From: a virus
Virus record (IMG/VR): IMGVR_UViG_3300020129_000338
Span: 1 to 36,358 of that record
DNA: 36,358 bases
Strand: one strand, 5' to 3'
In this document: piece after piece, positions 7,251 to 34,298 of the stretch
Position numbering within the stretch: the stretch's first letter is position 1
How the letters are laid out: each line of letters starts with the position of its first letter
Notes under the pieces: generated by a model
What the model was told of the DNA's origin: nothing
What the model saw: only the letters and a program-made list of their open reading frames with translations
Database searches by the model: none
Program-made: the position numbers and the translations under genes

Positions 7251-10200
7251 TTACCCCCAGAGCCAACCGGCCCAGCCGCCAGTGCCGTCCTCAAGGCCGA
7301 TCGTCAGCCCGCCCAGCGACGGCAGGACGTGCAGAGTTGAGAACCCGCGTCCCACGACTGCCGAGAGCTGATAGATGACCGCGTAGATCGTCCCGGTCGC
7401 CGGATCGAACCCGTCGGTGGTCATCTCTGCTGCGGTGTAGGTCAGGGTCGGCGAAGACAGGGCGAGATAGGCCCGCAGATAGGTCGCTGGATCGGTCGGA
7501 TCGAAGGCCGGGGCATCATCTGCGCTCGCCAGCAAATAGACCTCATACGCCTCCGAGGCCTCGCCGAGCGGCGCAGTGTCCGTGCCGTCCTCCATCATGC
7601 CACCGACGCGGGTGCGCCGGATCCAGGTCAGCACCACATCTGGGCCAACCTGGGTGCGCTCAGCGTTGACCGGCGCATACGGCATCATGTCGCGGCCGTG
7701 GAAAGCGAATGGCTCGACGTTGGCATCGTCAGGCAACATGCCGATCGTCACCAGACGCCAGAACTCGCTGAGATTGCGCTGTCCAAGTGGGATCTGCAGC
7801 AGATCAATCAGGCCCTCGTCGAGGAACACGAAAAGCTCGCCGCTTGTATGACCAAAGGCCATGGTGTCGGTGCCACGCTGGCCACGACGCAGTGTGGAAA
7901 GTTGCCACCGCCCATCGGACAATGCCGTCGCATCCCGGTATTGAATGATCTCCACTTGGCCGTTCGATTTGATCAACGCGATCGGGTTGGCGAAGTTGGC
8001 CATATCGAGGTCGGTCACCGACGACGGGAGGAAGTTGCCACCGATGATGCCCACACGCATGACGCCGCCATGCAGCTCGTCCTGTGTCGCGAAGATCGGT
8101 GGCCAGTCCGCGGCGGCACTCTCGACATAGCCCCAGGCCATCTCGTTGGAGACCGATGATAGGGTCGTCCAGAGACTGCTGCTGGGATCCGCTTGCTGCA
8201 GCACGGCGCCTGGCCACGCTGTGAACCGAGAGAACGGCCCGCCTCCCCAGTAGCCACGGATGGCGCGACCGGCCATGTCATCGACATCCCGCAGCAACGG
8301 CGTATCGAGCAGAATGAGCTCCGACTTGCCCGCAGCGGTGATGAAGTGGGAGCCAAACCACGGCACGCCGGGATCAGCCTCCACGAGCGAGACATACTGC
8401 CCGTCCGTCTCTCCGATCAGCTTGGTCTCAAGCGAGTAGTCGACGCCCAGGCTGATGTTGCCGAGGCGAACCCGCGCGGTATAGCCGTCACTCAAGGTCA
8501 GTTGCACGGCATCAGCCGGATCGAGATAGTCGAATGCCGGCGAGAGACGCGCCGCGAACGTATGTCGCTCATTCCAGGAAGTGTAGAGCAACAGTTCGGC
8601 CATTTGCTTCGCAGGCGTGGATGTCAACACCGCTGCAAGCTGGATATCTATCTGGTTGTCGGAGAAGACCGTCGGATCGGGATTGCGGATGCGCTTTACC
8701 GCTGCGGTGTTCATTTGGTAGTCGCGCTCTTGGTCAATGTAGGTGATCGTGAGACGCATCGGCAGTTCGATCTCCTGCTGCCGTGTCTCGACATAGGGTT
8801 CGGCCGACTGTTCATCAGTACGGATCAGGTCGTCCTGCGACACGTTGGCGACGGTCGCTCCAGCGCGATGCTTAAAATGCAGCGTGTAATCAGTCTCGAC
8901 CGCATCGACGAGATATGCGCCGAGCAGAGGCGTCAGAACGTCCGTCACTGTCGCACGTTGGCTGATGACGAAGCCCTCGATCGGATCGGTCAGCGCCGAA
9001 GCGTCGAAGTCCGCGATCGTAAAGCCAGCCCGTTCGCATTGGTCAGTGACGATATCGGCGAGCGTCGTTGACGTGCTGTCCCTGCGGGCAATAAATGCCT
9101 TCGCCACGTTACCAGGCACCGAAACGCCTTCAGTGAAACCACCGAGCACGGCTTGTGTTTCGCTGTCGTAGATCTGAATGTTGCCTATGCCGATCGGCCA
9201 GCCACCCGGGGATGGGGCGGCAGGCTGGTCGACTAGGATTGCACCAGTTGCGGTGGATACCTGTGTGACACCCGAAAGAGTGAAATAGGCCATGGTGCCA
9301 TGAGTAATGCGGCTTTGCCCGCTGACCGCGGCGGCCGGCTCGGCGGGAACCTCGGTAATCCAGACGAGGCCACTTACCTCAGACCATTTCGCTACCCAGT
9401 TTTTAATGTCATTACCAGGACTGAGTTGTGTTGAGCAGAAGAAGACCAGACTGTCATCGGTCTCGTCATAAACCAGAAACAATCTAGCCGGACCGGTGAA
9501 CTGAAGGGCGGCGGGATCGAACATATCCGGAGTGAATGTCGCAGCCGTCTCGTTGCTGAAAGTGCTACCATCCAAGCGGATGCGGGTTATCCAAATATTC
9601 GGCCCGCCCCCCAAGCTTCCCCTCCATATGGCCCATGCCTCACCGAACCCTAGCCCCCATTTGCCGCTAACAAGGCCCATCGGGAAACCGGTAAAGCCGA
9701 CATCGCCATGAGCCACATGCTCAAGCCCGGGTATCGATAGAACGCCCCACTGGTGCCAAAAGCCGAGCGAGACCAAATAATCTGCCCGCTCTCCTGTCGG
9801 GGTGAAACTACTGATGCTCGCGAAGAACTCGTTATCAATGAAGCCGGTGTCCGTAAAATCAGTAGGGCTTCCGCCAAAGTCTGGGAACGCTGCAGTCTGC
9901 TTCAGCGTGTTCTGGTCGATCCGTATGATCCCGGGAGATGATACGACGTATATTGCCCCATCTGGTCCGACAAACATGCCGGGACGGAGAACACCGCCGA
10001 ACGAGTTGCCACCATCAGTGCCATCGGTGAGAACCTCGGTCATCGGCACTTCACGGAGCGTACGCAACGTCACAGCGTCAGCTACGATCAGCGTGTATGG
10101 GTTCTGCCCCTGCCAGTAGGCGAGATTGCGATCCCAGTCGATGGCCATTGCGTCCTTGGCGAGGGAGTCCGCGCCGCTGACCGGAGCATCGGCCATCGTC

Positions 10201-10877
10201 CAGGTTTGATAAGGATATAACGGCGTGAGGATCTTGGTGACTTCGCATGTGACGTTCGGCATGCGATTTCCGTAGTCGGCGAGTGGCAGGTCGTCGAACA
10301 CCAGATAGCAAGTGCCTCGATAGGCCGGCACGTTCTCGGCACCCTTATCGGCCTGGATGATGCTGTCCGGAAGCTGGTCCTCGCTGCCGGGATAAAAGCG
10401 AAACTTGAAACCTGGCGACTGGATTATCTGCGGACCGGTCGAGTCATAGATAAGCTTGCTGTCGGCCCAGATGCGAACCACGGCATCCACCGGCCCCTCG
10501 CATAGAGCGAGCGCGAACGAACTGAAGTAGGTGTAGGTCGTGCTGGTGACAGACGGGCCGCTTCCGCCCTTGCCGTGCTTCTGCGTGTTCTTCTGTTCAC
10601 GTATCGGCGTCGCCCAGATCACGTTGCCCGCAATCCGTACGCGGCCATAGATGATCGGTCTTACCGCGCCGAACGCGGAACTCGATACAGTGAGGTCATT
10701 GAGCCGCGAGCCCTCCTGCTTAACCTGTTCGGGGAACAGTTGTTGCCCAACCAGCGTGCCGACCGAGAAGCCGATCGAGGCGGCAGTTGCCAGGGCGGCG
10801 AACGTCGTAAGGCCAGCAGCCGCACCGATGCCCAAGCCGGCAACCGCTCCGATGCCAGCCACAGCGAGGACGGCCAT
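7251..10877 (-). CDS. Tail tip/baseplate megatron protein (GTA gp15-like, Phage-tail_3)
   Basis: A 1208-residue central tail-tip protein. The N-terminus is a Gly/Ala-rich hydrophobic helix (MAVLAVAGIGAVAGLGIGA), followed by LTVSSSAFGAVRPIIYGRVRIAGNVIWATP, the signature opening of the alphaproteobacterial host-specificity protein family, then TYTYFSSFALALCEGP. The middle (residues about 230-590) is beta-propeller-like. The region around 600-900 matches the Phage-tail_3 domain (ADFDASALTDPIEGFVISQRA, DQERDYQMN). Fibronectin-like strands (PDVVLTWIRRTRVGG) lie near the C-terminus. The protein closes the tail tube and carries fibres. It overlaps the NlpC/P60 gene by one base (TGATG) and follows the GTA-type order gp12-gp13-gp14-gp15. 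Confidence 0.85.
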   Translation of the reverse strand: MAVLAVAGIGAVAGLGIGAAAGLTTFAALATAASIGFSVGTLVGQQLFPEQVKQEGSRLNDLTVSSSAFGAVRPIIYGRVRIAGNVIWATPIREQKNTQKHGKGGSGPSVTSTTYTYFSSFALALCEGPVDAVVRIWADSKLIYDSTGPQIIQSPGFKFRFYPGSEDQLPDSIIQADKGAENVPAYRGTCYLVFDDLPLADYGNRMPNVTCEVTKILTPLYPYQTWTMADAPVSGADSLAKDAMAIDWDRNLAYWQGQNPYTLIVADAVTLRTLREVPMTEVLTDGTDGGNSFGGVLRPGMFVGPDGAIYVVSSPGIIRIDQNTLKQTAAFPDFGGSPTDFTDTGFIDNEFFASISSFTPTGERADYLVSLGFWHQWGVLSIPGLEHVAHGDVGFTGFPMGLVSGKWGLGFGEAWAIWRGSLGGGPNIWITRIRLDGSTFSNETAATFTPDMFDPAALQFTGPARLFLVYDETDDSLVFFCSTQLSPGNDIKNWVAKWSEVSGLVWITEVPAEPAAAVSGQSRITHGTMAYFTLSGVTQVSTATGAILVDQPAAPSPGGWPIGIGNIQIYDSETQAVLGGFTEGVSVPGNVAKAFIARRDSTSTTLADIVTDQCERAGFTIADFDASALTDPIEGFVISQRATVTDVLTPLLGAYLVDAVETDYTLHFKHRAGATVANVSQDDLIRTDEQSAEPYVETRQQEIELPMRLTITYIDQERDYQMNTAAVKRIRNPDPTVFSDNQIDIQLAAVLTSTPAKQMAELLLYTSWNERHTFAARLSPAFDYLDPADAVQLTLSDGYTARVRLGNISLGVDYSLETKLIGETDGQYVSLVEADPGVPWFGSHFITAAGKSELILLDTPLLRDVDDMAGRAIRGYWGGGPFSRFTAWPGAVLQQADPSSSLWTTLSSVSNEMAWGYVESAAADWPPIFATQDELHGGVMRVGIIGGNFLPSSVTDLDMANFANPIALIKSNGQVEIIQYRDATALSDGRWQLSTLRRGQRGTDTMAFGHTSGELFVFLDEGLIDLLQIPLGQRNLSEFWRLVTIGMLPDDANVEPFAFHGRDMMPYAPVNAERTQVGPDVVLTWIRRTRVGGMMEDGTDTAPLGEASEAYEVYLLASADDAPAFDPTDPATYLRAYLALSSPTLTYTAAEMTTDGFDPATGTIYAVIYQLSAVVGRGFSTLHVLPSLGGLTIGLEDGTGGWAGWLWG

Positions 10878-19412: not shown

Positions 19413-20039
19413 TTACTTCTTCGGCTGTGGCGTCGGAGGCAGGTCTTGGTTCGGTGCGCCTGGCACTGGCGGCAGGTCTTGGTTAGGCAGACCCGGCACC
19501 GTAGACGGTGGAATTACGATCGGATGCGCCGGTTTTAGTGACGTATCAATCGTGGTCCAGCGGTAGCCGACACCCACCACCCAGATGAAGCACAGCACCT
19601 GCCCGGTCACGCTGGGTGGCAACGGCGGCCACACGGCGCCGGGAGGCAGTGGCAGATCGTTGTTCGGCGCCTTGGGCCGATAAATCGGATGCGTTGGCAG
19701 AACGGGCGCGAGCGGCAAGTCATGGTTCGGAAACACGGGCGGGCTCGGCCAGATCCCGGGCACGACGGGGATGCCATATGACGGATCGACGGGATACGTC
19801 GGGGGCAGTGGCTGGTGGCTTGGATACGGCGGCGGGATCGGCTGGTGCGAGGGGCGTTCGCCGCCCGGTGCGATCGGATGGCTCACGACTGGCGGGAGCG
19901 GAATTCCGTAGCCAGGATCGACGGGTCCACCAGGCGGGACAGGTTGGTGGCTCGGATAGTTCGGCCCGCCGGGTAGATCTTGGTTCGGGCCGCCGGGCAC
20001 CACGATGATGCTGCCCTCGGGGAGAGGAAATGCTGCCAT
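19413..20039 (-). CDS. Proline-rich repeat protein
   Basis: A 208-residue protein of which about one third is Pro. Short units recur: GGPNQDLP, PSHQPVPP, PVDPGYGIPLPP, PNHDLPLAP, PNNDLPLPP, PNQDLPPVP. A single non-repetitive hydrophobic segment, VLCFIWVVGVGYRWTTIDTS, lies near residue 155. The pattern implies an extended polyproline-type rod. GGAG lies 7 bases before the ATG. The location between connector and neck genes suggests a virion or head-decoration role, but nothing shows it directly. Confidence 0.6.
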   Translation of the reverse strand: MAAFPLPEGSIIVVPGGPNQDLPGGPNYPSHQPVPPGGPVDPGYGIPLPPVVSHPIAPGGERPSHQPIPPPYPSHQPLPPTYPVDPSYGIPVVPGIWPSPPVFPNHDLPLAPVLPTHPIYRPKAPNNDLPLPPGAVWPPLPPSVTGQVLCFIWVVGVGYRWTTIDTSLKPAHPIVIPPSTVPGLPNQDLPPVPGAPNQDLPPTPQPKK

Positions 20040-20159: not shown

Positions 20160-20855
20160 TTAAGCGATTGCGTGATCGCGGTAATTGCTGATGGTGTCAG
20201 CAACAGGCTGCAGATCAGGCGGCAGGGCTTCGTAGAGGCTCTGCTGCGACAGCGGCACCCAGTAGTCCTCCGAGCCGACGTTCTCGATCTGGAAGCGACG
20301 CAGCAATGGATCGCGCGATGATGCCGCCCATTTGTGCCGAAGGATCGTCATCACGGCATCGGTCACGTCTGGAGGGATCGGATAGTAGCCGGCGGAGTAC
20401 TGCACCGTGACACCGCTGCCGCACCAGTTCCCGCGGCAATTGCCGATGAGCCGATAGATCAGCCCACCGGTCTCATTCCACTCGTAGGCGTCTGGCGTCA
20501 GCGTGTTGGTATCCTCGAGGACGCTGCTGACGAAGGTCACCGGGCGGCGGCGAAGCTTGATCGGCAGGCCATATGGATGGCTGCCGCCCCAACCGTGGCC
20601 ATGATGGTAATTGGTCAGTTGGTGGATGCCGGAATAGCCATAGCCACCACCAATCAGACGAAACACCTCGGAGACGTTCTCCTCGGGAAACACGACCCCG
20701 CAGATATTGGCAAAACGGACGGACGTCGCCGTGATCCAGCGCTGGAGCTTGGCATCGCTCGCCGTGTTGGTGATGCCGAGCTCGTCCTTTACCGTCTCGA
20801 GGTCGATCAGGTCGTAGCTGCTCGCCGGATCGATGACTGTCAGGATGCTGTCCAT
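20160..20855 (-). CDS. Head-tail connector protein, gp6-like
   Basis: A 231-residue protein. The N-terminus DLIDLETVKDELGITNTASDAKLQRWITATSVRFANICG is the conserved helical opening of HK97 gp6-like connector (adaptor) proteins, which form the ring below the portal. LPIKLRRRPVTFVSSVLED and VTVQYSAGYYPIPPDVTDAVMTILRHKW continue the fold. A His/Gly/Tyr-rich insertion (GIHQLTNYHHGHGWGGSHPYG) sits near residues 80-100. The ATG at 20855 overlaps the stop of the last glycan-cassette gene as TGATG, coupling the connector to that cassette. Confidence 0.8.
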   Translation of the reverse strand: MDSILTVIDPASSYDLIDLETVKDELGITNTASDAKLQRWITATSVRFANICGVVFPEENVSEVFRLIGGGYGYSGIHQLTNYHHGHGWGGSHPYGLPIKLRRRPVTFVSSVLEDTNTLTPDAYEWNETGGLIYRLIGNCRGNWCGSGVTVQYSAGYYPIPPDVTDAVMTILRHKWAASSRDPLLRRFQIENVGSEDYWVPLSQQSLYEALPPDLQPVADTISNYRDHAIA

Positions 20856-21649
20856 CAGGCCATCAGCCTCCACAGGGTGCCATCGATCAGTTCACTTTCG
20901 TTGAACTGGCAGTATGCGAGCGAATGTACCCACTTCGTCCGATCCGGCATGGCGGGCCGCTCGATCATCTTGAGATCCGTCCGTCCAACCAGCGCGGCCG
21001 CACTGTCGGGGTGCACGAACACCGGACAGCCGAGGATGACCGCCTCCACCGCGGCGATCGAGCCGTGCGACACCAACGCGTGCGCGCCTTCGATGTCAGC
21101 CTGCAGGGGGCGCTTCGTCTCCTTGTCGCGGATCACAAGCTGCCTGTCGGTCACTCGGGCCAGCGCGTCGATCGTGTCGGCGGTCCAGCTTTGGCAGAGG
21201 TGAAACGCCGCATAGGTGCGTGTCGGCGCCGCGATGACGATATGCCGACCGTCCCTCCGCCAGGGCGCGACACCGATCTTCAGTGCGTTCCAGCGATCGT
21301 CTGACACGTCCCGGATGGTCTGCATCTGATAGCTGCCGGGATGCCACCGGTAGTAGCCGCCATGCTCGCCTCGCGGCAGCCAGGTCGCGAACACACGGCG
21401 CGCGTAGCCGCGATCCCAGTATACGAACGGCCTACCCGTCCGCCGCCACTCGGCAATCAATGACGTCAGCAAAGGCGTGCAGCCGACAATCGGGATGAAG
21501 TCGGAGGAGAGCGCGGCCATTGCCTCGACGTCGTGTCGGACAATCCTGCCACCCTTAGCGACGATGTGTCGGCCGATGCGTTCGAACAGGTCCAGCTTGA
21601 ACTTCTTCAGTTCTGGTGGGATCCAGAGGCAGGCCTGCGCCGGGTTCAT
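20855..21649 (-). CDS. GT-B-like glycosyltransferase / capsule-synthesis-like protein
   Basis: A 264-residue protein beginning MNPAQACLWIPPELKKFK. The C-terminal half has ADIEGAHALVSHGSIAAVEAVILGCPVFVHPDSAA, the motif by which GT-B transferases and capsule-synthesis (PF05159-type) proteins bind nucleotide sugar. RRDGRHIVIAAPTRTYAAF resembles the second Rossmann start. The N-terminal part is unusually short. It overlaps the gene before and after by one base each (TGATG). The donor and acceptor sugars cannot be told from sequence. Confidence 0.65.
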   Translation of the reverse strand: MNPAQACLWIPPELKKFKLDLFERIGRHIVAKGGRIVRHDVEAMAALSSDFIPIVGCTPLLTSLIAEWRRTGRPFVYWDRGYARRVFATWLPRGEHGGYYRWHPGSYQMQTIRDVSDDRWNALKIGVAPWRRDGRHIVIAAPTRTYAAFHLCQSWTADTIDALARVTDRQLVIRDKETKRPLQADIEGAHALVSHGSIAAVEAVILGCPVFVHPDSAAALVGRTDLKMIERPAMPDRTKWVHSLAYCQFNESELIDGTLWRLMA

Positions 21650-22296
21650 CACGCCACCCAGTTCTGCTGGACCCACGGCAGCTTTGTGAACAGGCTCGGA
21701 TCCCGATAACCCGGAAACACCACCAGCCTCGCATCAGCCGGAAGCGCCGTGCGTCCATCCGGCCACCCGGGCTTCTGGAACGCGTAAACGCCGCTCTCTG
21801 CACCGACCTTCCAACCCGCCGCATCCGGCAGCTTGTGCGCGAGCCAGCCCTGATCGTCGGGGAACCGATAATACGGGATGGTCGCCGCGGCCTCGAGCGA
21901 GAAGTCGGACCACACATCTGGCCGATAACCGCCCCTTACCATCATAACCGATCCGTTAAAGGGACACGGGTTCGAGGCATTGGCCCCTTGCAGGATGAGG
22001 AACGGCTCGGGCCGATCGAATAGCGGATCGAGCGGGCCGGTCACAATGCTATCGAGGTCGAGGCACACCAAGCGCTCGCCCGATCCGATGCCCTGGCGCG
22101 CCTGCCAGTCCGGATCGAACATCCGGAGTCGAGCGAAGCAGCCCGACGCGAGAACGAGACGCTCGTCGCCCCGCTCTGGATGAAAGACTGACCACCGGTA
22201 GGGCTGCTTGAGATGACGTCCCACGCCCGCCCGCAGCCTGTCGATGTACTCAACGCCATACTTGGGGCCCCAGTGCCAGCAGCAGACGTGCAGCAT
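21649..22296 (-). CDS. GT-A-like nucleotide-diphospho-sugar transferase
   Basis: A 215-residue protein: MLHVCCWHWGPKYGVEYIDRL, then LVCLDLDSIVTGPLDPLFD with the DxD metal/nucleotide-sugar motif near residue 80, followed by PCPFNGSVMMVRGGYRPDVWSDF and DDQGWLAHKL. This is the layout of a compact alphaproteobacterial GT-A family. The DxD is intact, so it should be active. The ATG at 22296 lies 2 bases after the upstream stop. Confidence 0.75.
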   Translation of the reverse strand: MLHVCCWHWGPKYGVEYIDRLRAGVGRHLKQPYRWSVFHPERGDERLVLASGCFARLRMFDPDWQARQGIGSGERLVCLDLDSIVTGPLDPLFDRPEPFLILQGANASNPCPFNGSVMMVRGGYRPDVWSDFSLEAAATIPYYRFPDDQGWLAHKLPDAAGWKVGAESGVYAFQKPGWPDGRTALPADARLVVFPGYRDPSLFTKLPWVQQNWVA

Positions 22297-22298
22297 GC

Positions 22299-22859
22299 TC
22301 AGTCTCGCACCCACAAGATCCCGAGCCCGTTGTCCCGCCCGGTCGGGTCGAGCCGGATCTCCTCGTGGCGATAGCTCTCCTTGATGTTGGTCCAGAATAG
22401 CGGGACGTCGATCTGGTAACCGGTCCAATCTGGCGGCCGCGACCACGCGATATCATGGAACGCCACGATGCGGCCCATGGGGCCGTAGTGCATCCAGTCG
22501 GCGCGCACGAACGGCAGCGTGTGACCGCCGTCGATCAGGATTAGATCGAACGGCCCGAGCGCCGAAACCTGGCTGACCACCGCGTCGTCCGTGCTGTCGC
22601 CCCAGATCAGGTGCGTGTCGTAACCGAGCCTCTTCAGTTCAGCGACGCAGGCGGTGAGCGCAACGCGACTTTGCGCCCAGTGCTTGTTCCCGGCCGGCAG
22701 ATCGACAGCGACCGCCCTCGATCCCGACGGCATCGCTCTGGTCACCGCGGCGAACGTCCCACCAAACTTGCAGCCGATCTCGAGGTAGCTGCGCACGCCC
22801 TCGCGCGCCACGAGCCCAACGAAGCGAGCCAATTCTGCCGGATGCTGCAGTGCCTTCAC
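22299..22859 (-). CDS. Class I SAM-dependent methyltransferase (Methyltransf_24-like)
   Basis: A 186-residue protein with motif I YLEIGCKFGGTFAAV, an acidic strand end AVDLP, GDSTDD and the FDLILIDGGHTLPFVRADW motif, then GRIVAFHDIAW. This matches methyltransferases of sugar or small-molecule type, with the IDGGH signature. The GTG at 22859 is chosen because it overlaps the upstream stop as GTGA and has GGGAG 6 bases before it; ATG at 22871 is possible and adds four residues. It may methylate the sugar built by the neighbouring transferases. Confidence 0.75.
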   Translation of the reverse strand: MKALQHPAELARFVGLVAREGVRSYLEIGCKFGGTFAAVTRAMPSGSRAVAVDLPAGNKHWAQSRVALTACVAELKRLGYDTHLIWGDSTDDAVVSQVSALGPFDLILIDGGHTLPFVRADWMHYGPMGRIVAFHDIAWSRPPDWTGYQIDVPLFWTNIKESYRHEEIRLDPTGRDNGLGILWVRD

Positions 22860-23425
22860 GGGCGCTCCCATATCGCTGCCACGCCGAGCGTCTTCGAAAT
22901 ATGGGATGTGTGGATCCGTTTCAGCGGCGCGAGCTGCTTATCCAGCACCTTCATCTCCTCGTGGTTCTCCAGCGGCTTGTCCGAGGTCGCGCGCCACCCG
23001 AACCATTTGACTGTGCGTTCTCCGAGACCGGTCATCAGCGCGTCGAGGATGCCAGGATCCATGATGCGCTTCAGCTTGTGATAGGTCGCGAGCATCAGCA
23101 CGATGTCGTAGCGCACACCGCCGAATACCTTCAGCGCCGGCATCCCTCGTGCCAGATCCACCACCTCGAACTGGCTCTCGACGCCGCGCAGGTCAGCGAA
23201 CAGTTGCCTGGCCGTCTCGATGCCCGGAGCGTAGTTGTCGCAGCCGTGCACCAGGCGGGCGCCATTGTTGGCCATTTCAAACGCGACCAACCCGCGATTG
23301 CAGCCGAGATCCATCACCGAGGCGCCCTTGGCACGGATCGTCAGATCCAGCATGCCGTCGAGCCGGATGTCGTGGTAGCCGGCGACCCGCCGCTGCAGCG
23401 TGGTCTCAGTCGTCACGCTGGGCAT
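22856..23425 (-). CDS. Class I SAM-dependent methyltransferase
   Basis: A 189-residue protein with VMDLGCNRGLVAFEMANNG as motif I (SAM-binding glycine loop) near residue 40, LVHGCDNYAPGIETA as motif II and YDIVLMLATYHKL as the post-motif strand. KWFGWRATSDKPLENHEEMKVLD near the C-terminus has no obvious assignment. The start is ATG 23425 (13-base overlap with the GT9-like gene) or GTG 23416 (GTGA overlap); neither has a strong ribosome site. It is the second methyltransferase of the cassette. Confidence 0.7.
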   Translation of the reverse strand: MPSVTTETTLQRRVAGYHDIRLDGMLDLTIRAKGASVMDLGCNRGLVAFEMANNGARLVHGCDNYAPGIETARQLFADLRGVESQFEVVDLARGMPALKVFGGVRYDIVLMLATYHKLKRIMDPGILDALMTGLGERTVKWFGWRATSDKPLENHEEMKVLDKQLAPLKRIHTSHISKTLGVAAIWERP

Positions 23426-24207
23426 AACCGCGCCATGACGTGCTCCAGCACCTCGCCCACGCCAATCGCCTGCATGGCGGCCGCACAATGTGCACAGGGC
23501 TGCAGCGAGCCACAGGCGTCCGCGCCGCCCGTCAGATTGGTGTGCAGGGCGTAGCCGGTGACCTCGGGAGGGATGAAGCCACCGAACAGGACAACGCCCC
23601 CTACGCCCACAGCAGCGGCGCCGTGGTGCAAACCACCCTCGCCACCGATGTAGAGTTTCGCGCGGGCCAGTACCGCCAGAGCACGACGAAAGCCTGGGCT
23701 GGCGAGATGCCGCGCATGTCGGAGCAGCCTGGCGCCGCGATAGTGAAACTGGATCACGTCCCAACCTGTTGCTCGCACAGCGCGCGCAACCTCCTCATAT
23801 CGATCGAACGGCCATTGCTTGTTGGCGACCGGGGACTTCGGCGATGGGTTCGGCTCCATGATGACGAACGGATGATCGCCGGCCAGCTTGGCGAACTGTC
23901 TCTCTTCCTTGGTCAAGTAGATCTCACCAGGAATGCAGCGGAACTGGTAATTCCATTCCCAACGGCCTGGCGTCCAGCGATTGTAAAGACGATTCGATTT
24001 GTAAAACGGGATCCACTCCAGCTCGAATTGGGTATTCACGTTCATGGCCGTCGCTTTCGGCGAAGCGATGTTCGGATTGCCGGCGAAGATCGTCGCGCTG
24101 TTGCTGTCCCACAGGATCCGCTTGCCATCGCCGAAGGCTATCTTCTTGCCCCGTGCCGCGGCACCCTTCGCGAGACCGGTTCCGATCAACTGGTCGCCGA
24201 TGCCCAC
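23413..24207 (-). CDS. Glycosyltransferase family 9-like (heptosyltransferase fold)
   Basis: A 264-residue protein starting MGIGDQLIGTGLAKGAAARG, the N-terminal loop of GT9 enzymes. FVIMEPNPSPKSPVANKQWPF and RYEEVARAVRATGWDVIQF form the second domain, and KLYIGGEGGLHHGAAAVGVGGVVLFGG is the conserved ADP-sugar-binding region. A Cys-rich tail (CGSLQPCAHCAAAM) follows. GT9 enzymes add heptose or similar residues to lipopolysaccharide cores. It is shorter than typical chromosomal GT9 (about 320-350 residues), with the loss in the first domain. The stop of this gene is followed at once by the next overlapping frame. Confidence 0.8.
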   Translation of the reverse strand: MGIGDQLIGTGLAKGAAARGKKIAFGDGKRILWDSNSATIFAGNPNIASPKATAMNVNTQFELEWIPFYKSNRLYNRWTPGRWEWNYQFRCIPGEIYLTKEERQFAKLAGDHPFVIMEPNPSPKSPVANKQWPFDRYEEVARAVRATGWDVIQFHYRGARLLRHARHLASPGFRRALAVLARAKLYIGGEGGLHHGAAAVGVGGVVLFGGFIPPEVTGYALHTNLTGGADACGSLQPCAHCAAAMQAIGVGEVLEHVMARLCPA

Positions 24208-24936
24208 TTAATCAGCCCAGCGCGCCAGTTCCTGCCGCCATTCATCGGCGTAGGGATCGTCCTCGTATCCCGGCATGTCAGGCGTGCCCTCGGTGAAGTG
24301 GACGATCTGCGGCGAATTCAGCGTGAGAGGCTCGCTTTGCCGCACCAGCCAGTTCCACTTCGGATCAAGCTCGCCGATCTCCTCGTCATCGAGCCACACG
24401 AAGCGATGCAGATCCCGCCCGGCCAGCGAATTGACCGCGTCGACGGTAAGCGTGCGGTTGGACGGATGCTGGCAGTTCCAGACCACCACGGAAGACCAGT
24501 TCTTCCGCACGTATCGGGTCTGCTCCTGACCGTCCATCTTCACCCCGGCCGGCGGCATGTGGCGATGCTTGACGCAATAGACCGCCTTCGCCGGGTCGAG
24601 GCCATCGAACAGGCGGACGACATTGCCACGCACCAGGACGTCGCCGTCCATGAACAGCGCCCAACCGGTGCCTGCCAGATGCGGCACGAGGAAGCGCGCG
24701 TTGGCGTGCTGCGTGGACATCGGCGCGTCCGAGATCGTATCCCACATGATCCGGTTCGCAGTCGGTCCTTCGCGCCACTCGATCGGCCGGTTGTAGAGCC
24801 CGTCCTCCTGCAGCGCCGCCAGGACCACGCCACGGATGGCGAGCGGCTGCGTCAGCCGCCGCTTGGTGGACGAGCGCGCCACGGCGTAAGCCGCTGCCTC
24901 GCGCGGATCGAACCCGATCCAGATGCTGCGGTTCAT
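24208..24936 (-). CDS. GT-A glycosyltransferase with DxD motif
   Basis: A 242-residue protein: MNRSIWIGFDPREAAAYAVARSS opens like GT8-type and related transferases, and GTGWALFMDGDVLVRGNVVRLFD contains the DxD motif near residue 105. YCVKHRHMPPAG, SSVVVWNCQHPSN and HRFVWLDDEEIGELDPKWNWLV follow, then IVHFTEGTPDMPGY. All core residues seem present. The ATG at 24936 overlaps the upstream stop as ATGA. The retaining or inverting mechanism cannot be told from this. Confidence 0.78.
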   Translation of the reverse strand: MNRSIWIGFDPREAAAYAVARSSTKRRLTQPLAIRGVVLAALQEDGLYNRPIEWREGPTANRIMWDTISDAPMSTQHANARFLVPHLAGTGWALFMDGDVLVRGNVVRLFDGLDPAKAVYCVKHRHMPPAGVKMDGQEQTRYVRKNWSSVVVWNCQHPSNRTLTVDAVNSLAGRDLHRFVWLDDEEIGELDPKWNWLVRQSEPLTLNSPQIVHFTEGTPDMPGYEDDPYADEWRQELARWAD

Positions 24937-25577
24937 GTCCATTCGTGCAGCGCCTGTTCGACTGTGACCTTGGGAAAGCACGTCAGGACCGACAGATCCG
25001 ACGCATTCAGCACTTGAACGCCGGCGGTCTTCAGTTGCACCGAGGCGGTGTCGAAGGCGGCCCGCCAGCGCTTGAAGTTCCACTCGGCCGGATTGCTCCG
25101 CCCGTTGCCGCTCGCCCGGCCATACCAGTGCACGCCGTAGTGGTCGGTCATGTCGAAGCCGATCAGCAGCACGCGCCGCGCACCGAACTGCACCGCGAGG
25201 TTTAACGCCTGGAACCCGCTGTTGCCGCCGGAACCGACGGTGCCAGGCGGCGAGAAGATCAATCGATCGCCAGACGGGTCCGCGACTTGCACGATCCGAA
25301 TGTCGGGGAACCGAGTGGCAATCCTACCGGTGGCCGAGACCTTCAGTCCGCCGTACTTCGGCATGCCGTTGGCATTGCGCCACCACGCCGCGTCGCAGCC
25401 GTAGAGCACGTCAGCCTTGGCGAAGAGTTCGATGTTCTCCTTGATCGCGATGACACGTAGCTGGTCGCGTAGCGCCGTGATGTTCGCTCGCTTGGCCGAC
25501 GGACCGGACGCGATGATCGCACACGCCTCGCCGGTCCAATCGAGGAACCAAGCAGGCTTCTCACCACTTGGTGCCAT
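24933..25577 (-). CDS. Glycosyltransferase-like protein (GT42/MAF-like Rossmann)
   Basis: A 214-residue protein. CAIIASGPSAKR is a nucleotide-binding first loop; VLYGCDAAWWRNANGMPKYGG follows. GTVGSGGNSGFQALNLAVQFGARRVLLIGFDMTDHYGVHWYG resembles the second conserved block of sialyltransferase-like GT42 and of MAF/DUF115-type proteins. These act on nonulosonic-acid or flagellin sugars in other systems; that substrate is not implied here. It overlaps the collagen-like gene by 17 bases and the next gene by ATGA, so it is the first gene of the glycan cassette. Confidence 0.7.
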   Translation of the reverse strand: MAPSGEKPAWFLDWTGEACAIIASGPSAKRANITALRDQLRVIAIKENIELFAKADVLYGCDAAWWRNANGMPKYGGLKVSATGRIATRFPDIRIVQVADPSGDRLIFSPPGTVGSGGNSGFQALNLAVQFGARRVLLIGFDMTDHYGVHWYGRASGNGRSNPAEWNFKRWRAAFDTASVQLKTAGVQVLNASDLSVLTCFPKVTVEQALHEWT

Positions 25578-26421
25578 CTTGCCCCAGTTGCGTCAGATCC
25601 CGTCCAGGCTTGCCTTCGGGCCCAGGCTCGCCAGGCTTGCCGTCGTGACCGTCCTTGCCATCGCGGCCTTTCTTCACCGCGAGCCGCCAATCCGAATTCG
25701 GGCCATACACAGGGCGGAGCTTGGTATCGCGCCGGGCGATCCAGAATTCGCCGCCGAGCGAAACGCCGTCGCCCTTGGTGTACGCGCCTTCCTTCCAAAC
25801 CCCACGATCGACTGGCAGACCTGTCGTGATGACGTTCTGGCTGATCACCTCGCCGTTGCGCGCCAGCGTGATGACGATCGTCCGACCGTCGTCTGGCGTG
25901 GAGGCGGTCATGTCCTCCGCACTGAGACCATCGCGTCCGTCTTTGCCGGGCGAACCATCCTTGCCGTCATTCCCGTCGCGTCCCGGCGGTCCCGGCACAC
26001 CGTCACGACCATCGCGCCCGGGGGCGCCATCCTTGCCTGCCTCGGCGGGCGGGATGTCCGCCACGGCCTCCGCCACCAGAGTCCTCACGATGCCTTTGAC
26101 GACTTCCGGATCGACTTCCGCGCCGTCGCGCCCGGGGGCGCCGTCTTTGCCCGGTGCACCAGCTTCAGCGGGCGGCAATACCGCCACGGCTTCTGCAACC
26201 ATCTCAGCGACCAAGGTCTTGGTGATCTCGGGATCCGCATCACGTCCATCCTTGCCGGCGGGCCCAGGCTCGCCTCTGGCGCCCGGTTCCGGCGCAGGCA
26301 GCGCGGCAACCGCGCGCTCAAGCAATTTCCCAATCTCACCGATGTCCACGCTCTTGCCGTCTTCGCCATCGCGCCCAGGTGGTCCCTGCGGCCCCTCGAC
26401 CGGCGCGCGTGCCTCGAGCAC
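25561..26421 (-). CDS. Collagen-like virion protein with CBM-like module (5'-truncated)
   Basis: From the GTG at 26421 this gives 286 residues. Gly-X-Y blocks (GPQGPPGRDGEDG; GARGEPGPAGKDGRD; GAPGKDGAPGRDG; a long block of PGRDGNDGKDG type) alternate with two similar helices (TKTLVAEMVAEAVAVLPPAEAG and GIVRTLVAEAVADIPPAEAG). Then comes a CBM5/12-like module (GVWKEGAYTKGDGVSLGGEFW, DWRLAVKKG) and a last GRDGKDGHDGKPGEPG run. It sits between portal and glycan cassette, a common place for head fibre or decoration proteins. No good ribosome site precedes the GTG; the natural start seems to be ATG 26520, cut off by an amber codon. Confidence 0.72.
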   Translation of the reverse strand: MLEARAPVEGPQGPPGRDGEDGKSVDIGEIGKLLERAVAALPAPEPGARGEPGPAGKDGRDADPEITKTLVAEMVAEAVAVLPPAEAGAPGKDGAPGRDGAEVDPEVVKGIVRTLVAEAVADIPPAEAGKDGAPGRDGRDGVPGPPGRDGNDGKDGSPGKDGRDGLSAEDMTASTPDDGRTIVITLARNGEVISQNVITTGLPVDRGVWKEGAYTKGDGVSLGGEFWIARRDTKLRPVYGPNSDWRLAVKKGRDGKDGHDGKPGEPGPEGKPGRDLTQLGQDGTKW

Positions 26422-26540: not shown

Positions 26541-28007
26541 TTACGCCGCGAAAAGCGCGCGCAGTTGCGTATTCGCCTCCAGCGCGACGATCGCGGCGAG
26601 CGCCTCGATGTCGAGGTCACGCTGTTGATCGTCGGCTGGAGGCGGTGCTGCTGGGGCCGGGCTCGGGGCAGGCGCGGCCGCAGCGAACGGGTTGTCGCTT
26701 TCATCACGCTTCGCCAGCGCGGCGAGCGAGTAATCCTGATGTTGCATCATCGGGCTATCGCCGCCCTCAACCGGCTTGTAGCCGAGGCGTTTGCGGCCTT
26801 CGTTCGGGGCGAGGATGCCGCCACGGACGCCGTCACCAAGCGCTTTGATCATGGTGGCCGTGTCCATGCGCATCAGGTCGTCGAGATCGAATTCAGTGCC
26901 GTAGGTCTTCCCCACCAGGTCAGTGAGGCCGAGGCCTTCGTCGAGGCAAAGCTCGATGTTCTCGAATAAGCCCTGAAGGCATTGCGAGTAATACTGCTGA
27001 TCGAGCGCCTCAATGTTGGTATAGGTTGGCTGCGGGCCGATCGAGATCTTGTGCGTCGGGACATGGAAGGCGGAGCACACCGTCTCTGCGCTCCACTTCA
27101 GTTGCTCGATCAGTTGCGAGTCGACGGCGTTGAACGACATCGCCTCGTACTTGAGGCCATCGCCGACAACAGCAACGCGGCCGACGTTGTTGCCCGAGTA
27201 GTGTTGCTCCCAATGGGCCTTCAGCCGATCGGCGTCGTCTTTGGTGATCCGCCCAGGCGCCACGAGAATGCCGCTCGGCTGTGACTGCTGCGAGAAGAAT
27301 GTCGCAGACTGGCGCTGGATATTGAGCCCGGTCGCCGCGGCGAGGCCACACGCCGTCAGCGGAGACACACCGCACAGCGGATGATACAGCGGCACCATCA
27401 CATCGTGGATTATCTCGCTCGCCGGAACGACGAGGTTGTCGCCGATCTCCTCGTTGATGCCAGCCAGATTATCGCGCGACAGTTGGTAGAATACCTCGCC
27501 GTCGGGTGCGACGAGCGCCCGCGTGCGTAGCGGATCGAGGATGTACATCGCGCGCACCGCGCCCTGCAGCGGCCCGCTGCCACGATTGTCTCGCTCCTTC
27601 AGCACATACGTGTTGCCGTGAACCAGCTTGGAGACGATCCATTGCTCGTAGAATTTGATCCTGTTTTGGTAACGGTTGGGTTTCTCCAGTACCGGGCTGA
27701 AGGTCGGCGAGAACGTCTCCGACCAGATCCCGTTGTCATCCTGCTCAACCAGACGAACTCGGACTTTACTCACGTCGCTCGCGATCAGGGTGATGCACGA
27801 ATAGACCGCATGGAACGTCGCAACACTCTCTGGCCGAAGCGCGATATTGCGCTGCCAGGCTCCAGTGAATGGTTCATTGACGAGCGGATAAAGCGGATAC
27901 CACGACCGACCGCTGTCGATTGCGCCAGAGCCGGAATAGGACTTCGCCTCGCTCTCGCGGCGCTGCTCAAGCGCAGCGCGACGCCTCCTGCGCCCACCTC
28001 GCGACAT
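26541..28007 (-). CDS. HK97-family portal protein
   Basis: A 488-residue portal, the dodecameric ring through which DNA enters and leaves the head. Diagnostic segments are VATFHAVYSCITLIASDVSKV, KFYEQWIVSKLVHGNTYVLKERD, IIHDVMVPLYHPLCGVSPLTACG, SGILVAPGRITKDDADRLKAHW and VCSAFHVPTHKISIG. The N-terminus is strongly basic (SRGGRRRRRAALEQRR) and the C-terminus is Ala/Pro-rich before a final helix. The start is 3 bases after the upstream stop. It lies downstream of the capsid gene, opposite to the usual HK97 order. Confidence 0.92.
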   Translation of the reverse strand: MSRGGRRRRRAALEQRRESEAKSYSGSGAIDSGRSWYPLYPLVNEPFTGAWQRNIALRPESVATFHAVYSCITLIASDVSKVRVRLVEQDDNGIWSETFSPTFSPVLEKPNRYQNRIKFYEQWIVSKLVHGNTYVLKERDNRGSGPLQGAVRAMYILDPLRTRALVAPDGEVFYQLSRDNLAGINEEIGDNLVVPASEIIHDVMVPLYHPLCGVSPLTACGLAAATGLNIQRQSATFFSQQSQPSGILVAPGRITKDDADRLKAHWEQHYSGNNVGRVAVVGDGLKYEAMSFNAVDSQLIEQLKWSAETVCSAFHVPTHKISIGPQPTYTNIEALDQQYYSQCLQGLFENIELCLDEGLGLTDLVGKTYGTEFDLDDLMRMDTATMIKALGDGVRGGILAPNEGRKRLGYKPVEGGDSPMMQHQDYSLAALAKRDESDNPFAAAAPAPSPAPAAPPPADDQQRDLDIEALAAIVALEANTQLRALFAA

Positions 28008-28448: not shown

Positions 28449-30404
28449 TCACTCGGCGTATTTCGCGCCCGAGATGTAGCCCACGCATTCAGGCCGGCGC
28501 TTCGCCCAGTTGATGTAGCGCTCGGCCTTGATGGCCATCATGTTCTGCTGCCACATCGATATCATTGTGGTCGAGGACGTCGGTGGCGAGTCAGGTGAAG
28601 TGTCCATCTGCAGCGACGCTTCACTGCTGGCATCGATCACCACCTGACCGTCATCAGCGAGCAAAACATCGCTCGCATTGACCAGGATGATCGGGAAGCC
28701 GTCCGCCGGCGAACCGCCCGACTGCGGCACGCCCTCAGATGTCACGACCGGCATGCCAATGAACGTGCCGCCCTGCATCGTGATCCCCGGATATTCCGGC
28801 TGGCCGAGGGCGTTCAGCATCAAGTGGATCCCGAGCGCCGTCTGCTGCGTCATGATCCAGACCGCGCTGCTCATCTGCAGGTTGCTGTCGAGGAACGTGG
28901 CCATGAGGTTACGAACATCGGCTCGCAATGCCGCAGCGGTAGTGCCGGATGCCGGAACGGGTGTCACGCCGTAGGTGATCGAGGCCGGCGAGACGTCGTT
29001 CGCCGCTTTGGTCGGATCTACGAACTGACTGTCCATGTACTGGATGATCGCCGCCGCCAGTTCGTCACGCACCAACATCTCGGCCGCAGGATTGGACAGA
29101 CGCACCAACTCGTCGGTCAACACGATGATGCCGGCGATCTTGGCGATGTCCAGCGTGATGCTGTCGAACGCCATCGAGGTGATCGGCTTGACCTTGCCTT
29201 CGCCAACCCAACTCACGGATGCCGCGCCAGTCTGCCGCGGGATCTTCACCTTGAACGGCACCCGCCTCAAGCCAGGGATCCGGCCAATGATGGTCAACGG
29301 ACGCAGGTATTCGATGAACTCGCTCTGCAGGTTCTGATAGACAACCAGTGGGCCAGCCCAGGTCGGATCCGTCGTGGTGCCAGCAGCGACCGCTGCACGC
29401 AGCACCGTCTCGACTTCCGGTGTCTCATTGCGCCACCGGTCGTTGCTCATGGCGATGCGCTCGGCGAGCATCAGATTGCCCTTGGCAATCATGAGTGACA
29501 TCGCGAAGCGGGTGAACGGAATTCCAGGCGGCAGCTTCGGCGCCTTCACAGTAGCCGCCACGGAGCCACCGCGCGCCTGACTGGCGCTATCCGGATCCTT
29601 GACGTCTACCACAGCCTTCGCCGCGGCGATGTTCATCTTCTCCATCTTGCGGAGGTCGACGAGTTCCCGGTCGATGCTCTCCAGCTCGCGCTGCAGCGTC
29701 TCGAACTCCTCGCGCTCACCTTCGTCCTTGGTGCGGTTCTCCTCGCTCGCACCATCCTGGATCTCGGAGAGGCGCGCCGACTTGGCCTGGCGCGTAGCCT
29801 CGAATGCGGCGATCTGTTCGCCGATTGTACGCTTACTCATGGTTTTTGCCCTTTGAACCGGCTTGGCTTTTCCCGATGCGCCGGGCTGTGAATCGGCCGA
29901 TTGCGCAGTTCCATTCGCGGCGCGCAGGTCGGCGTCGATGCTCTTGATGGAGGTGATTGTTGCGTCGACGTTGGCCGGAATCGTCACCAGCGACAGCTCC
30001 AGCACCTCGCTCTCGACGTAACGCACTCCGCCACCATCGATGAACGAATATTCGATCGGCCGGAAACCGACGGACACGCCGCGCACGAGACCGGCCTTGA
30101 GCGACTGCCACGCCTCGTCGATACGATCCTTTAGCGTCCCAGGCTCACTGACCGATGCGAGCTGCGCCTCGAACCCAATGCCGCCCTTGATCGGCTTGTC
30201 GAACGTGGCCAGCCCGACCGGCTTGTCGCTCTTGTGCTGCCACAGCAGCGGCATCGGGTTGCTGAACTTCACGCCGAGCGGCTCGATGATGTCGCCCATT
30301 CGATCGGTGCTTGGCGTCGTCGCCATCCCGCGAATGGTATGGGTGTCCTCGTTGACCGATTTGATCTCGAGCAACGAGTACGCGCGGCCCCTCGACATAT
30401 CCAT
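28449..30404 (-). CDS. Fused prohead protease and HK97-type major capsid protein
   Basis: A 651-residue fusion. Residues 1-150 are a peptidase U35/S78 prohead protease: His57 in PLLWQHKSDKPVG, Ser111 in GLVRGVSVGF and the late ELSLVTIPAN strand. A Gln/Gly/Lys-rich linker (160-188) leads to a coiled-coil scaffold (SKRTIGEQIAAFEATRQAK to LVDLRKMEKMNIAAAK) and then the HK97 capsid fold (EFIEYLRPLTIIGRIPGLRRVPFKVKIPRQTG, KPITSMAFDSITLDIAKIAGIIVLTDELV, VNASDVLLADDGQVVIDASSEASL). The ATG at 30404 has GGAGAGG upstream; a TTG at 30467 is less likely. An internal ATG at 29840 (Met189), with AAAGGG nearby, could start a free 463-residue capsid protein. Confidence 0.9.
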   Translation of the reverse strand: MDMSRGRAYSLLEIKSVNEDTHTIRGMATTPSTDRMGDIIEPLGVKFSNPMPLLWQHKSDKPVGLATFDKPIKGGIGFEAQLASVSEPGTLKDRIDEAWQSLKAGLVRGVSVGFRPIEYSFIDGGGVRYVESEVLELSLVTIPANVDATITSIKSIDADLRAANGTAQSADSQPGASGKAKPVQRAKTMSKRTIGEQIAAFEATRQAKSARLSEIQDGASEENRTKDEGEREEFETLQRELESIDRELVDLRKMEKMNIAAAKAVVDVKDPDSASQARGGSVAATVKAPKLPPGIPFTRFAMSLMIAKGNLMLAERIAMSNDRWRNETPEVETVLRAAVAAGTTTDPTWAGPLVVYQNLQSEFIEYLRPLTIIGRIPGLRRVPFKVKIPRQTGAASVSWVGEGKVKPITSMAFDSITLDIAKIAGIIVLTDELVRLSNPAAEMLVRDELAAAIIQYMDSQFVDPTKAANDVSPASITYGVTPVPASGTTAAALRADVRNLMATFLDSNLQMSSAVWIMTQQTALGIHLMLNALGQPEYPGITMQGGTFIGMPVVTSEGVPQSGGSPADGFPIILVNASDVLLADDGQVVIDASSEASLQMDTSPDSPPTSSTTMISMWQQNMMAIKAERYINWAKRRPECVGYISGAKYAE

Positions 30405-30496
30405 GTCGGACCTCTCCAGGTTGTAATGGGACTTGTGTTCCGCAACCGGCTTGATCCGGCCTTGCAATCGCTCAGCGCTCTGGGCTAGGAGCGAAC

Positions 30497-33836: not shown

Positions 33837-34298
33837 TTAATGGTTCTCCGGAAACCACGGGCCGAGAACCTGTTCTGAAGTGTAGTTGAGCCGGTCGAGC
33901 GGCACGGTGGGGGTCTCGCCGTGCTCCTCTAGGGCAACTGCGGCGATCCCGCGAGCCGTCGGCAATTCCGCCGCGATGACAGTCGCGAGGCTCTCACGCA
34001 GCGTTCGGTTGCCCCTCAGCAGCCTGTCCACCTCGCCACGGGTCCGCACGATGGTTGAACGCCAGCCACGCCGTGGATCGGCCGCAGGCGACGCCTGTAG
34101 GCGCATGAGGTGGTCGAGGATGGTGCTGACGCGGTTGGCGAGTTCCTGTTCCTGCGAGCGGCCCAAGCTCTCGATCTCCTCGATTATATTGTCCCAATCG
34201 ACCAGATCGTTCACTCGCTCGCCCGCCGCGACCCGGCGCAACAGTGCGGCTTGCTGATCCGTCCAGCGCGCATAGTCGGTATCGTAGAGGTCGCTCAT
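33837..34298 (-). CDS. DUF29 family protein
   Basis: A 153-residue protein with the DUF29 opening YDTDYARWTDQQAALLRRVAAGE and VDWDNIIEEIESLGRSQEQELANRVSTILDHLMRLQ. The rest is helical with RTRGEVDRLLRGNRTLRES, and it ends in LGPWFPE. The family is widespread in alphaproteobacteria and cyanobacteria and has no known function. It lies between TerL and the rightward island and is read with the late strand. It may be a host-derived accessory gene. Confidence 0.85.
   Translation of the reverse strand: MSDLYDTDYARWTDQQAALLRRVAAGERVNDLVDWDNIIEEIESLGRSQEQELANRVSTILDHLMRLQASPAADPRRGWRSTIVRTRGEVDRLLRGNRTLRESLATVIAAELPTARGIAAVALEEHGETPTVPLDRLNYTSEQVLGPWFPENH

Follow-up and report, generated by a model that had tools for sequence, protein, structure and literature searches.

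In mycobacteriophages, phage-encoded glycosyltransferases (GTs) glycosylate both capsid and tail tube (Freeman 2023, cited in PMC11256854, PMC12363180 and PMC12619734). Across the literature searched, virion glycosylation has been demonstrated only in mycobacteriophages, and other actinobacteriophages represent predicted cases; in a Rhodococcus phage, the combination of a GT and a methyltransferase was read as pointing to extensive glycosylation of the virion (PMC13313380). Here, we analyzed an IMG/VR viral contig of a tailed phage of soil origin (IMGVR_UViG_3300020129_000338; 36,358 nucleotides, the whole of which is called the window below). Its head operon carries a cassette of seven genes, in the order DUF115, GT8, GT9, MT1, MT24, GTB and open reading frame (ORF) 7, of which five are GT-like and two (MT1 and MT24) are S-adenosylmethionine (SAM) methyltransferase genes. 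We propose, with a probability of roughly 0.6, that this cassette would encode a cytoplasmic pathway for the late assembly of a short O-methylated glycan on at least one virion protein.

The proposed arrangement resembles that of the mycobacteriophages Che8, Corndog and Myrna in that phage-encoded GTs would target a capsid or other virion protein (PMC12363180, PMC11256854 and PMC12619734). For mycobacteriophages, however, one or a few GT genes are described, which lie near the 3' end of the genome in Maravista (PMC11256854), whereas the present head operon contains predicted genes for five GTs and two methyltransferases whose order is conserved, most of the phages concerned being alphaproteobacterial. 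Mycobacteriophages were not among the matches listed in our phage-collection protein searches, which included no direct comparison with Che8 gp110 or Corndog gp38. Judged from its genes, the cassette is a larger, mobile and head-linked variant of phage virion glycosylation, with a predicted chemistry.

Partial counterparts are found in other phages. The hdm operon of P7 (hdmA-D, for 'head morphogenesis') contains two members of the DUF115 family, hdmB and hdmC, and one of the GTB family, hdmD, but profiles found no GT8-like gene 2, GT9, ORF7 or methyltransferase in it, and it forms a separate operon near baseplate genes. Pseudomonas phage PAJU2 shares the head type and the portal-collagen-module order and has DUF115 and a methyltransferase flanked by head closure and tail terminator, with no GT8, GT9, ORF7 or GTB match within the stretch read. 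The Caulobacter phage CcrSC and its relatives (Bertelyvirus, CcrColossus) come with DUF115, two ORF7-like genes, a GT8-like gene, a methyltransferase and GT9 in a row, but with no GTB or MT24 match; in CcrSC (NC_048048.2, 10482-14968), this set is annotated mostly as hypothetical. As these Caulobacter phages are culturable, they offer a test system. Among enzymes of other origin, the beta-Kdo transferases KpsC and WbbB (Kdo, 3-deoxy-D-manno-oct-2-ulosonic acid) and the GT42 sialyltransferases resemble ORF7 and gene 1, respectively, in predicted fold, and the GT9 heptosyltransferases are the family of gene 3. The cassette proteins differ from these enzymes in being shorter and in not lying near capsule or lipopolysaccharide (LPS) genes, and the fold matches show only about 10-12% identity. 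The literature searched contained no paper on a seven-gene head-linked cassette, and none was found on a phage collagen-glycosyltransferase-portal linkage or under sialyltransferase combined with head-tail terms. If our proposal is true, the existence of a conserved multi-enzyme cassette that goes with head genes even where the heads are unrelated would imply that particle glycosylation is a general phage trait, and the cassette would provide soluble enzymes with which methylated glycans could be built on shells made of protein.

Gene content and predicted enzymes

The seven genes are intact and occupy positions 20855-25577 of the minus strand, between the gene of a collagen-like virion-type protein (25561..26421) and that of the head-tail connector (20160..20855; phrog_442, E 1.2e-23), both on the same strand. 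The count of five GT-like and two methyltransferase genes, made in a sequence-only reading of this DNA, was upheld by family matches and fold searches. So was the tight stop-start packing from the collagen-like gene to the connector, with junctions ranging from -17 to +2 bases: collagen/DUF115 -17, DUF115/GT8 -4 (ATGA), GT8/GT9 0, GT9/MT1 -13, MT1/MT24 -16, MT24/GTB +2, GTB/ORF7 -1 (TGATG) and ORF7/connector -1, where the connector start overlaps the ORF7 stop (TGATG). GC content and GC at third codon positions of the cassette equal those of the neighbouring genes and thus give no sign of a recent foreign insertion.

Gene 1 (24933..25577; 214 residues) appears DUF115/MptE-like, with a predicted GT42-sialyltransferase-like fold. 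It matched phrog_4603, annotated as 'sialyltransferase' (E 8.3e-39), and PF01973 below its cut-off (E 6.4e-4; 20 vs 34.6 bits), and its AlphaFold model (predicted local distance difference test, pLDDT, 96.6) had CstII as best Foldseek match (E 1.4e-5, template-modelling (TM) score 0.59). Gene 2 (24208..24936) encodes a GT8-like GT-A glycosyltransferase as judged from phrog_28018 (E 1.3e-45) and a weak match to PF01501 (E 0.0021, below cut-off); both Asp of its D97-x-D99 motif are invariant in 26 aligned sequences. Gene 3 (23413..24207) exceeded the cut-off of the GT9 family PF01075 (E 3.1e-9; 37 bits vs a gathering score of 22). Its profile search matched heptosyltransferases I and II; it is nearest to LPS heptosyltransferases, although it stays below the equivalog cut-offs of LPS heptosyltransferase I or II (22.4 vs 185.3 and 15.4 vs 134.6). 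At 264 residues the protein is indeed short, as had been remarked from the sequence; a truncated gene can be ruled out, since all family members are about as short.

The two methyltransferase genes both scored above family cut-offs and both have conserved SAM motifs. Gene 4 (MT1, 22856..23425) belongs to Methyltransf_25 (PF13649, E 5.7e-6), with a conserved D39-x-G41-x-N43-x-G45, and gene 5 (MT24, 22299..22871) to Methyltransf_24 (PF13578, E 2.7e-8), with a weak match below cut-off to the NCBIfam sugar O-methyltransferase TIGR04371. Additional methyltransferase copies in relatives are TylF-like. A defence system was considered and dismissed, PADLOC having returned one weak generic methyltransferase match.

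Gene 6 (GTB, 21649..22296) is a GT-A-like glycosyltransferase, supported by phrog_1962 'glycosyltransferase' (E 1.3e-7) and an invariant D80-L-D82; its profile also weakly matched Skp1 galactosyltransferase and glycogenin, two enzymes that act on protein-linked glycans. Gene 7 (ORF7, 20855..21649) has no Pfam or PHROG match, and its profile retrieved nothing meaningful from the sequences of solved structures; matches came from the fold search alone. Starting from an AlphaFold model with a pLDDT of 95.7, Foldseek led to the beta-Kdo transferases KpsC and WbbB (E 5e-5, probability 1.0), with TM scores of 0.41-0.56 to the best KpsC matches. The aspartate D79 within YWDRGY is invariant and a candidate catalytic residue. 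Membrane segments were predicted in none of the seven enzymes (maximum KD19 1.61), and all of them look soluble.

As stated in the sequence-only reading, the window holds no nucleotide-sugar synthesis genes of its own, such as would mark a polysaccharide biosynthesis operon. A CMP-sugar synthetase (PF02348) was detected in 0 of 16 cassette-bearing records, and a nucleotide-sugar epimerase (PF01370) in two, the window not among them; for this reason we propose that donors would come from the host. One related contig has a nucleotide-sugar epimerase-like gene inside its cassette (L135; G011:11219-11704).

In the pathway that we envisage, the enzymes would act late, in the cytoplasm, during head assembly. 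Chain start might be catalyzed on Ser/Thr of a head protein by the GT42/Maf-like enzyme or by one GT8-like enzyme, after which the chain would be lengthened by the GT8, GT9 and Kdo-transferase-like enzymes from donors that the host makes; UDP-hexoses, along with LPS precursors (for example ADP-heptose or CMP-Kdo), are the probable ones. Modification or capping of the glycan would fall to the two methyltransferases. As acceptor, we consider the capsid protein most likely and the collagen-like protein second. Kdo and heptose as donors are suggested by fold similarity alone, and we infer the order of steps, the acceptor and a benefit for the phage, be it particle protection, adsorption or a decoy function.

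Phage glycosyltransferases commonly serve another purpose, the hypermodification of DNA bases (Pyle 2024, as cited in PMC12619734), and the cassette might do likewise. This appears very improbable, as thymidylate-synthase/hydroxymethylase genes (PF00303) occurred in 0 of the 16 cassette-bearing records, some of which are fragments, and as the cassette, in which there are GT9- and Kdo-type enzymes, resides in the late head region and not beside genes for replication.

Conservation and linkage to head genes

Scans with portal, GT9 and GT8 yielded some 140 viral loci, a few contigs being fetched twice. The complete order portal-collagen-DUF115-GT8-GT9-MT1-MT24-GTB-ORF7-connector is present in six of them (L002, L004, L005, L012, L013 and, with insertions, L118), and the cassette itself shows the same order in dozens of viral contigs as well as in prophages of Mesorhizobium and Bradyrhizobium. 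Compared with three close relatives, all cassette genes show a dN/dS of 0.08-0.36, which overlaps the range of portal and connector. By these measures the cassette is under purifying selection, and its conserved gene set and order together with the low dN/dS are far beyond chance.

Conservation linked to head genes had been named beforehand as a test of the proposal, and the gene-order search revealed it, including in an unrelated head module. Within one head type we found at least three placements: after portal and collagen-like gene and before the connector, between capsid and portal (arrangement B; L095 and the Mesorhizobium prophages L143 and L144), and after the connector. A different head module is represented by L128 and the Bradyrhizobium prophage L145, in which GT8-GT9-MT1-MT24-GTB-ORF7 is flanked by portal (phrog_145) and scaffold (phrog_206), in L145 also with a phrog_247 major head protein. 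Further cases are L190, L191, L192, L195 (the contig of L128), L201 and L217, although in some a gene is missing or the contig ends early. In the ORF7 tree, the window belongs to a supported clade (97*) that holds both head types, which suggests transfer of the cassette, or of its genes, from one head to another, where it came to lie beside head genes again; in the GT9 tree, the arrangement labels require several changes.

An ORF7-centred scan returned 195 relatives, of which 80 were kept; 78 loci were newly fetched, 37 of them of at least 12 kb. All 37 long loci contained at least four of the seven cassette families, and 33 had a recognized structural gene on the same strand. Throughout the 78 loci, the cassette genes of each locus were on one strand (434/434). 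These counts do not represent independent events, because some loci are contigs fetched earlier. In the earlier set, a structural neighbour was present in 56 of the 75 loci with at least three families; the remainder includes six verrucomicrobial loci and many short contigs.

The cassette also appears to have been reshuffled internally. The MT24-GTB block (21649-22871) is 94/91% identical to that of L111, compared with 75-86% for the remaining cassette genes, and is, on this evidence, a recent recombination within the cassette. The GT8 of L005 is only 57% identical to that of the window. Such uneven identities suggest that single enzymes are swapped and that the glycan varies.

These data bear on the possibility that recombination captured a fragment of a bacterial polysaccharide operon that has no selected function. 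Chromosomal relatives of the individual families do exist, but order, intact frames and low dN/dS are kept across divergent phages, a conservation that refutes such an origin, and ORF7 is rare in host genomes (7/146 in the genus of Mesorhizobium jarvisii, whose strain LMG 28313 carries a prophage with arrangement B, and 3/297 in the family of the Bradyrhizobium). We give this explanation next to no credence.

Candidate acceptors and alternative targets

The window encodes a prohead protease fused to the major capsid protein (28449..30467, minus strand; PF05065, E 3e-22, and PF04586), which we consider a candidate acceptor. Its C-terminal region contains the loop TSPDSPPTSSTT, of the form PDSPxT(A/S)ST. 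The PDSP of this loop was present in 25 of 27 cassette-bearing rows; among cassette-poor rows that extend for at least 8 kb downstream, 0 of 20 had it. We regard the loop as a lead on the acceptor, not as proof, and the capsid or another head protein as the more likely acceptor in comparison with the collagen-like fibre.

The collagen-like protein might still be the specific acceptor, which would give a head or neck fibre that bears glycans, much as some collagen-like proteins of bacteria do. The Gly-X-Y repeats described from the sequence are real (PF01391, E 3.2e-14), the gene adjoins the cassette with a 17-base translational overlap in the window, and the portal-collagen-cassette order is found in many loci. 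Nevertheless, many cassette loci, some of them cut short, have no Gly-X-Y ORF (at least seven repeats) in the stretch seen, Gly-X-Y proteins occur in 14 cassette-free portal loci, and arrangement B puts the cassette between capsid and portal. Moreover, Thr/Ser are almost absent from the Gly-X-Y stretches of the window, and, next to an intact cassette, its collagen gene contains an amber codon. The collagen-like protein is thus no obligate partner of the cassette, and co-occurrence led us to reject it as sole acceptor; a collagen-specific target seems improbable. Of the idea that a late glycan is built on virion proteins, the link to head genes stood, and the emphasis on the collagen-like fibre was weakened. 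The carbohydrate-binding module (CBM)-like region once assigned to this protein matched no CBM family at the thresholds used; it is a module common to C-terminal parts of phage portal families (phrog_1289).

As for the amber codon, the collagen-like start of the relatives corresponds to ATG 26520, after which the window has an in-frame TAG (26469-26467) at codon 18, where L002/L112, L003, L005 and L111 have sense codons. Possible reasons are a nonsense mutation, an error in sequencing or a start at GTG 26421 further downstream. Translational readthrough from portal to collagen was discarded: a single stop separates the two frames in six loci (five TAA, one TAG), but it is followed by an ATG of its own for collagen, and in most loci the two genes are in different frames.

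Several observations weigh against glycosylation of the virion as proposed here. The correlation between capsid motif and cassette corresponds to only about one to three evolutionary changes on the tree, so that kinship explains much of it, and two short cassette-free contigs (L011 and L049) have the motif as well. Linkage to head genes is not universal, given that the related set of CcrSC lies between tail-fibre and endolysin (lysis) genes and that Pelagibacter phage Mosig carries GT8-ORF7-sulfotransferase-ORF7-GTB beside ribonucleotide-reductase (nucleotide-metabolism) genes. An ORF7-GT9-GT8 trio is found on verrucomicrobial chromosomes (L161-L165, L176) with no phage context seen; the flanks of the two loci checked contain major facilitator superfamily/enolase-like genes (L162) and DUF3419/YidC genes (L164), and no phage gene. 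The core enzymes would thus also act on something other than a virion. Finally, no mass-spectrometry or enzymatic data for these phages were found in the literature searched.

The verrucomicrobial trio speaks for the main competing explanation, namely that the enzymes alter the LPS core or another surface glycan of the host, either in lysogens or late in infection, when this would prevent superinfection or keep progeny from adsorbing again. Enzymes of LPS and capsule synthesis have GT9 and KpsC-like folds, the putative donors are LPS precursors, and core LPS glycosyltransferases are cytosolic, as the cassette enzymes are predicted to be. However, the cassette is repeatedly embedded amid late-strand head genes, in different head modules, whereas for genes that convert the host surface we would expect a location close to those for lysogeny or to the attachment site. 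The absence of predicted membrane segments also implies that the seven proteins include no membrane flippase of the GtrA type or polyprenyl-linked GtrB type, as known from serotype-conversion gtr clusters. We therefore consider a host-surface role unlikely, though the strongest of the alternatives, and favour the glycosylation of a virion protein.

A bolder form of the latter can be put forward tentatively. The cassette might constitute a mobile virion-glycocalyx module, in which a fixed pathway of five transferases and two methyltransferases uses host CMP-Kdo and ADP-heptose, is swapped between non-homologous heads and coats the capsid via the conserved Pro/Ser/Thr loop, and which would be widespread in soil alphaproteobacterial phages.

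Neighbouring genes in the window

The minus strand of the window carries TerL, the protease-capsid fusion, a PF04860 portal (26541..28007, E 1.7e-80), the collagen-like protein, the connector, a tape measure and a tail protein like that of gene transfer agents (GTA; Rcc01698). Between connector and head-tail attachment protein, a proline-rich repeat protein (19413-20039; PNQDLPP, PSHQPLPP) represents another possible glycan carrier. The GTA-like host-specificity protein spans 7251-10877 (Rcc01698 C-terminal domain), and CcrSC, too, encodes a host-specificity tail protein of the GTA type close to its cassette. A DUF29 protein (33837-34298, E 1.9e-26) adjoins the large terminase gene.

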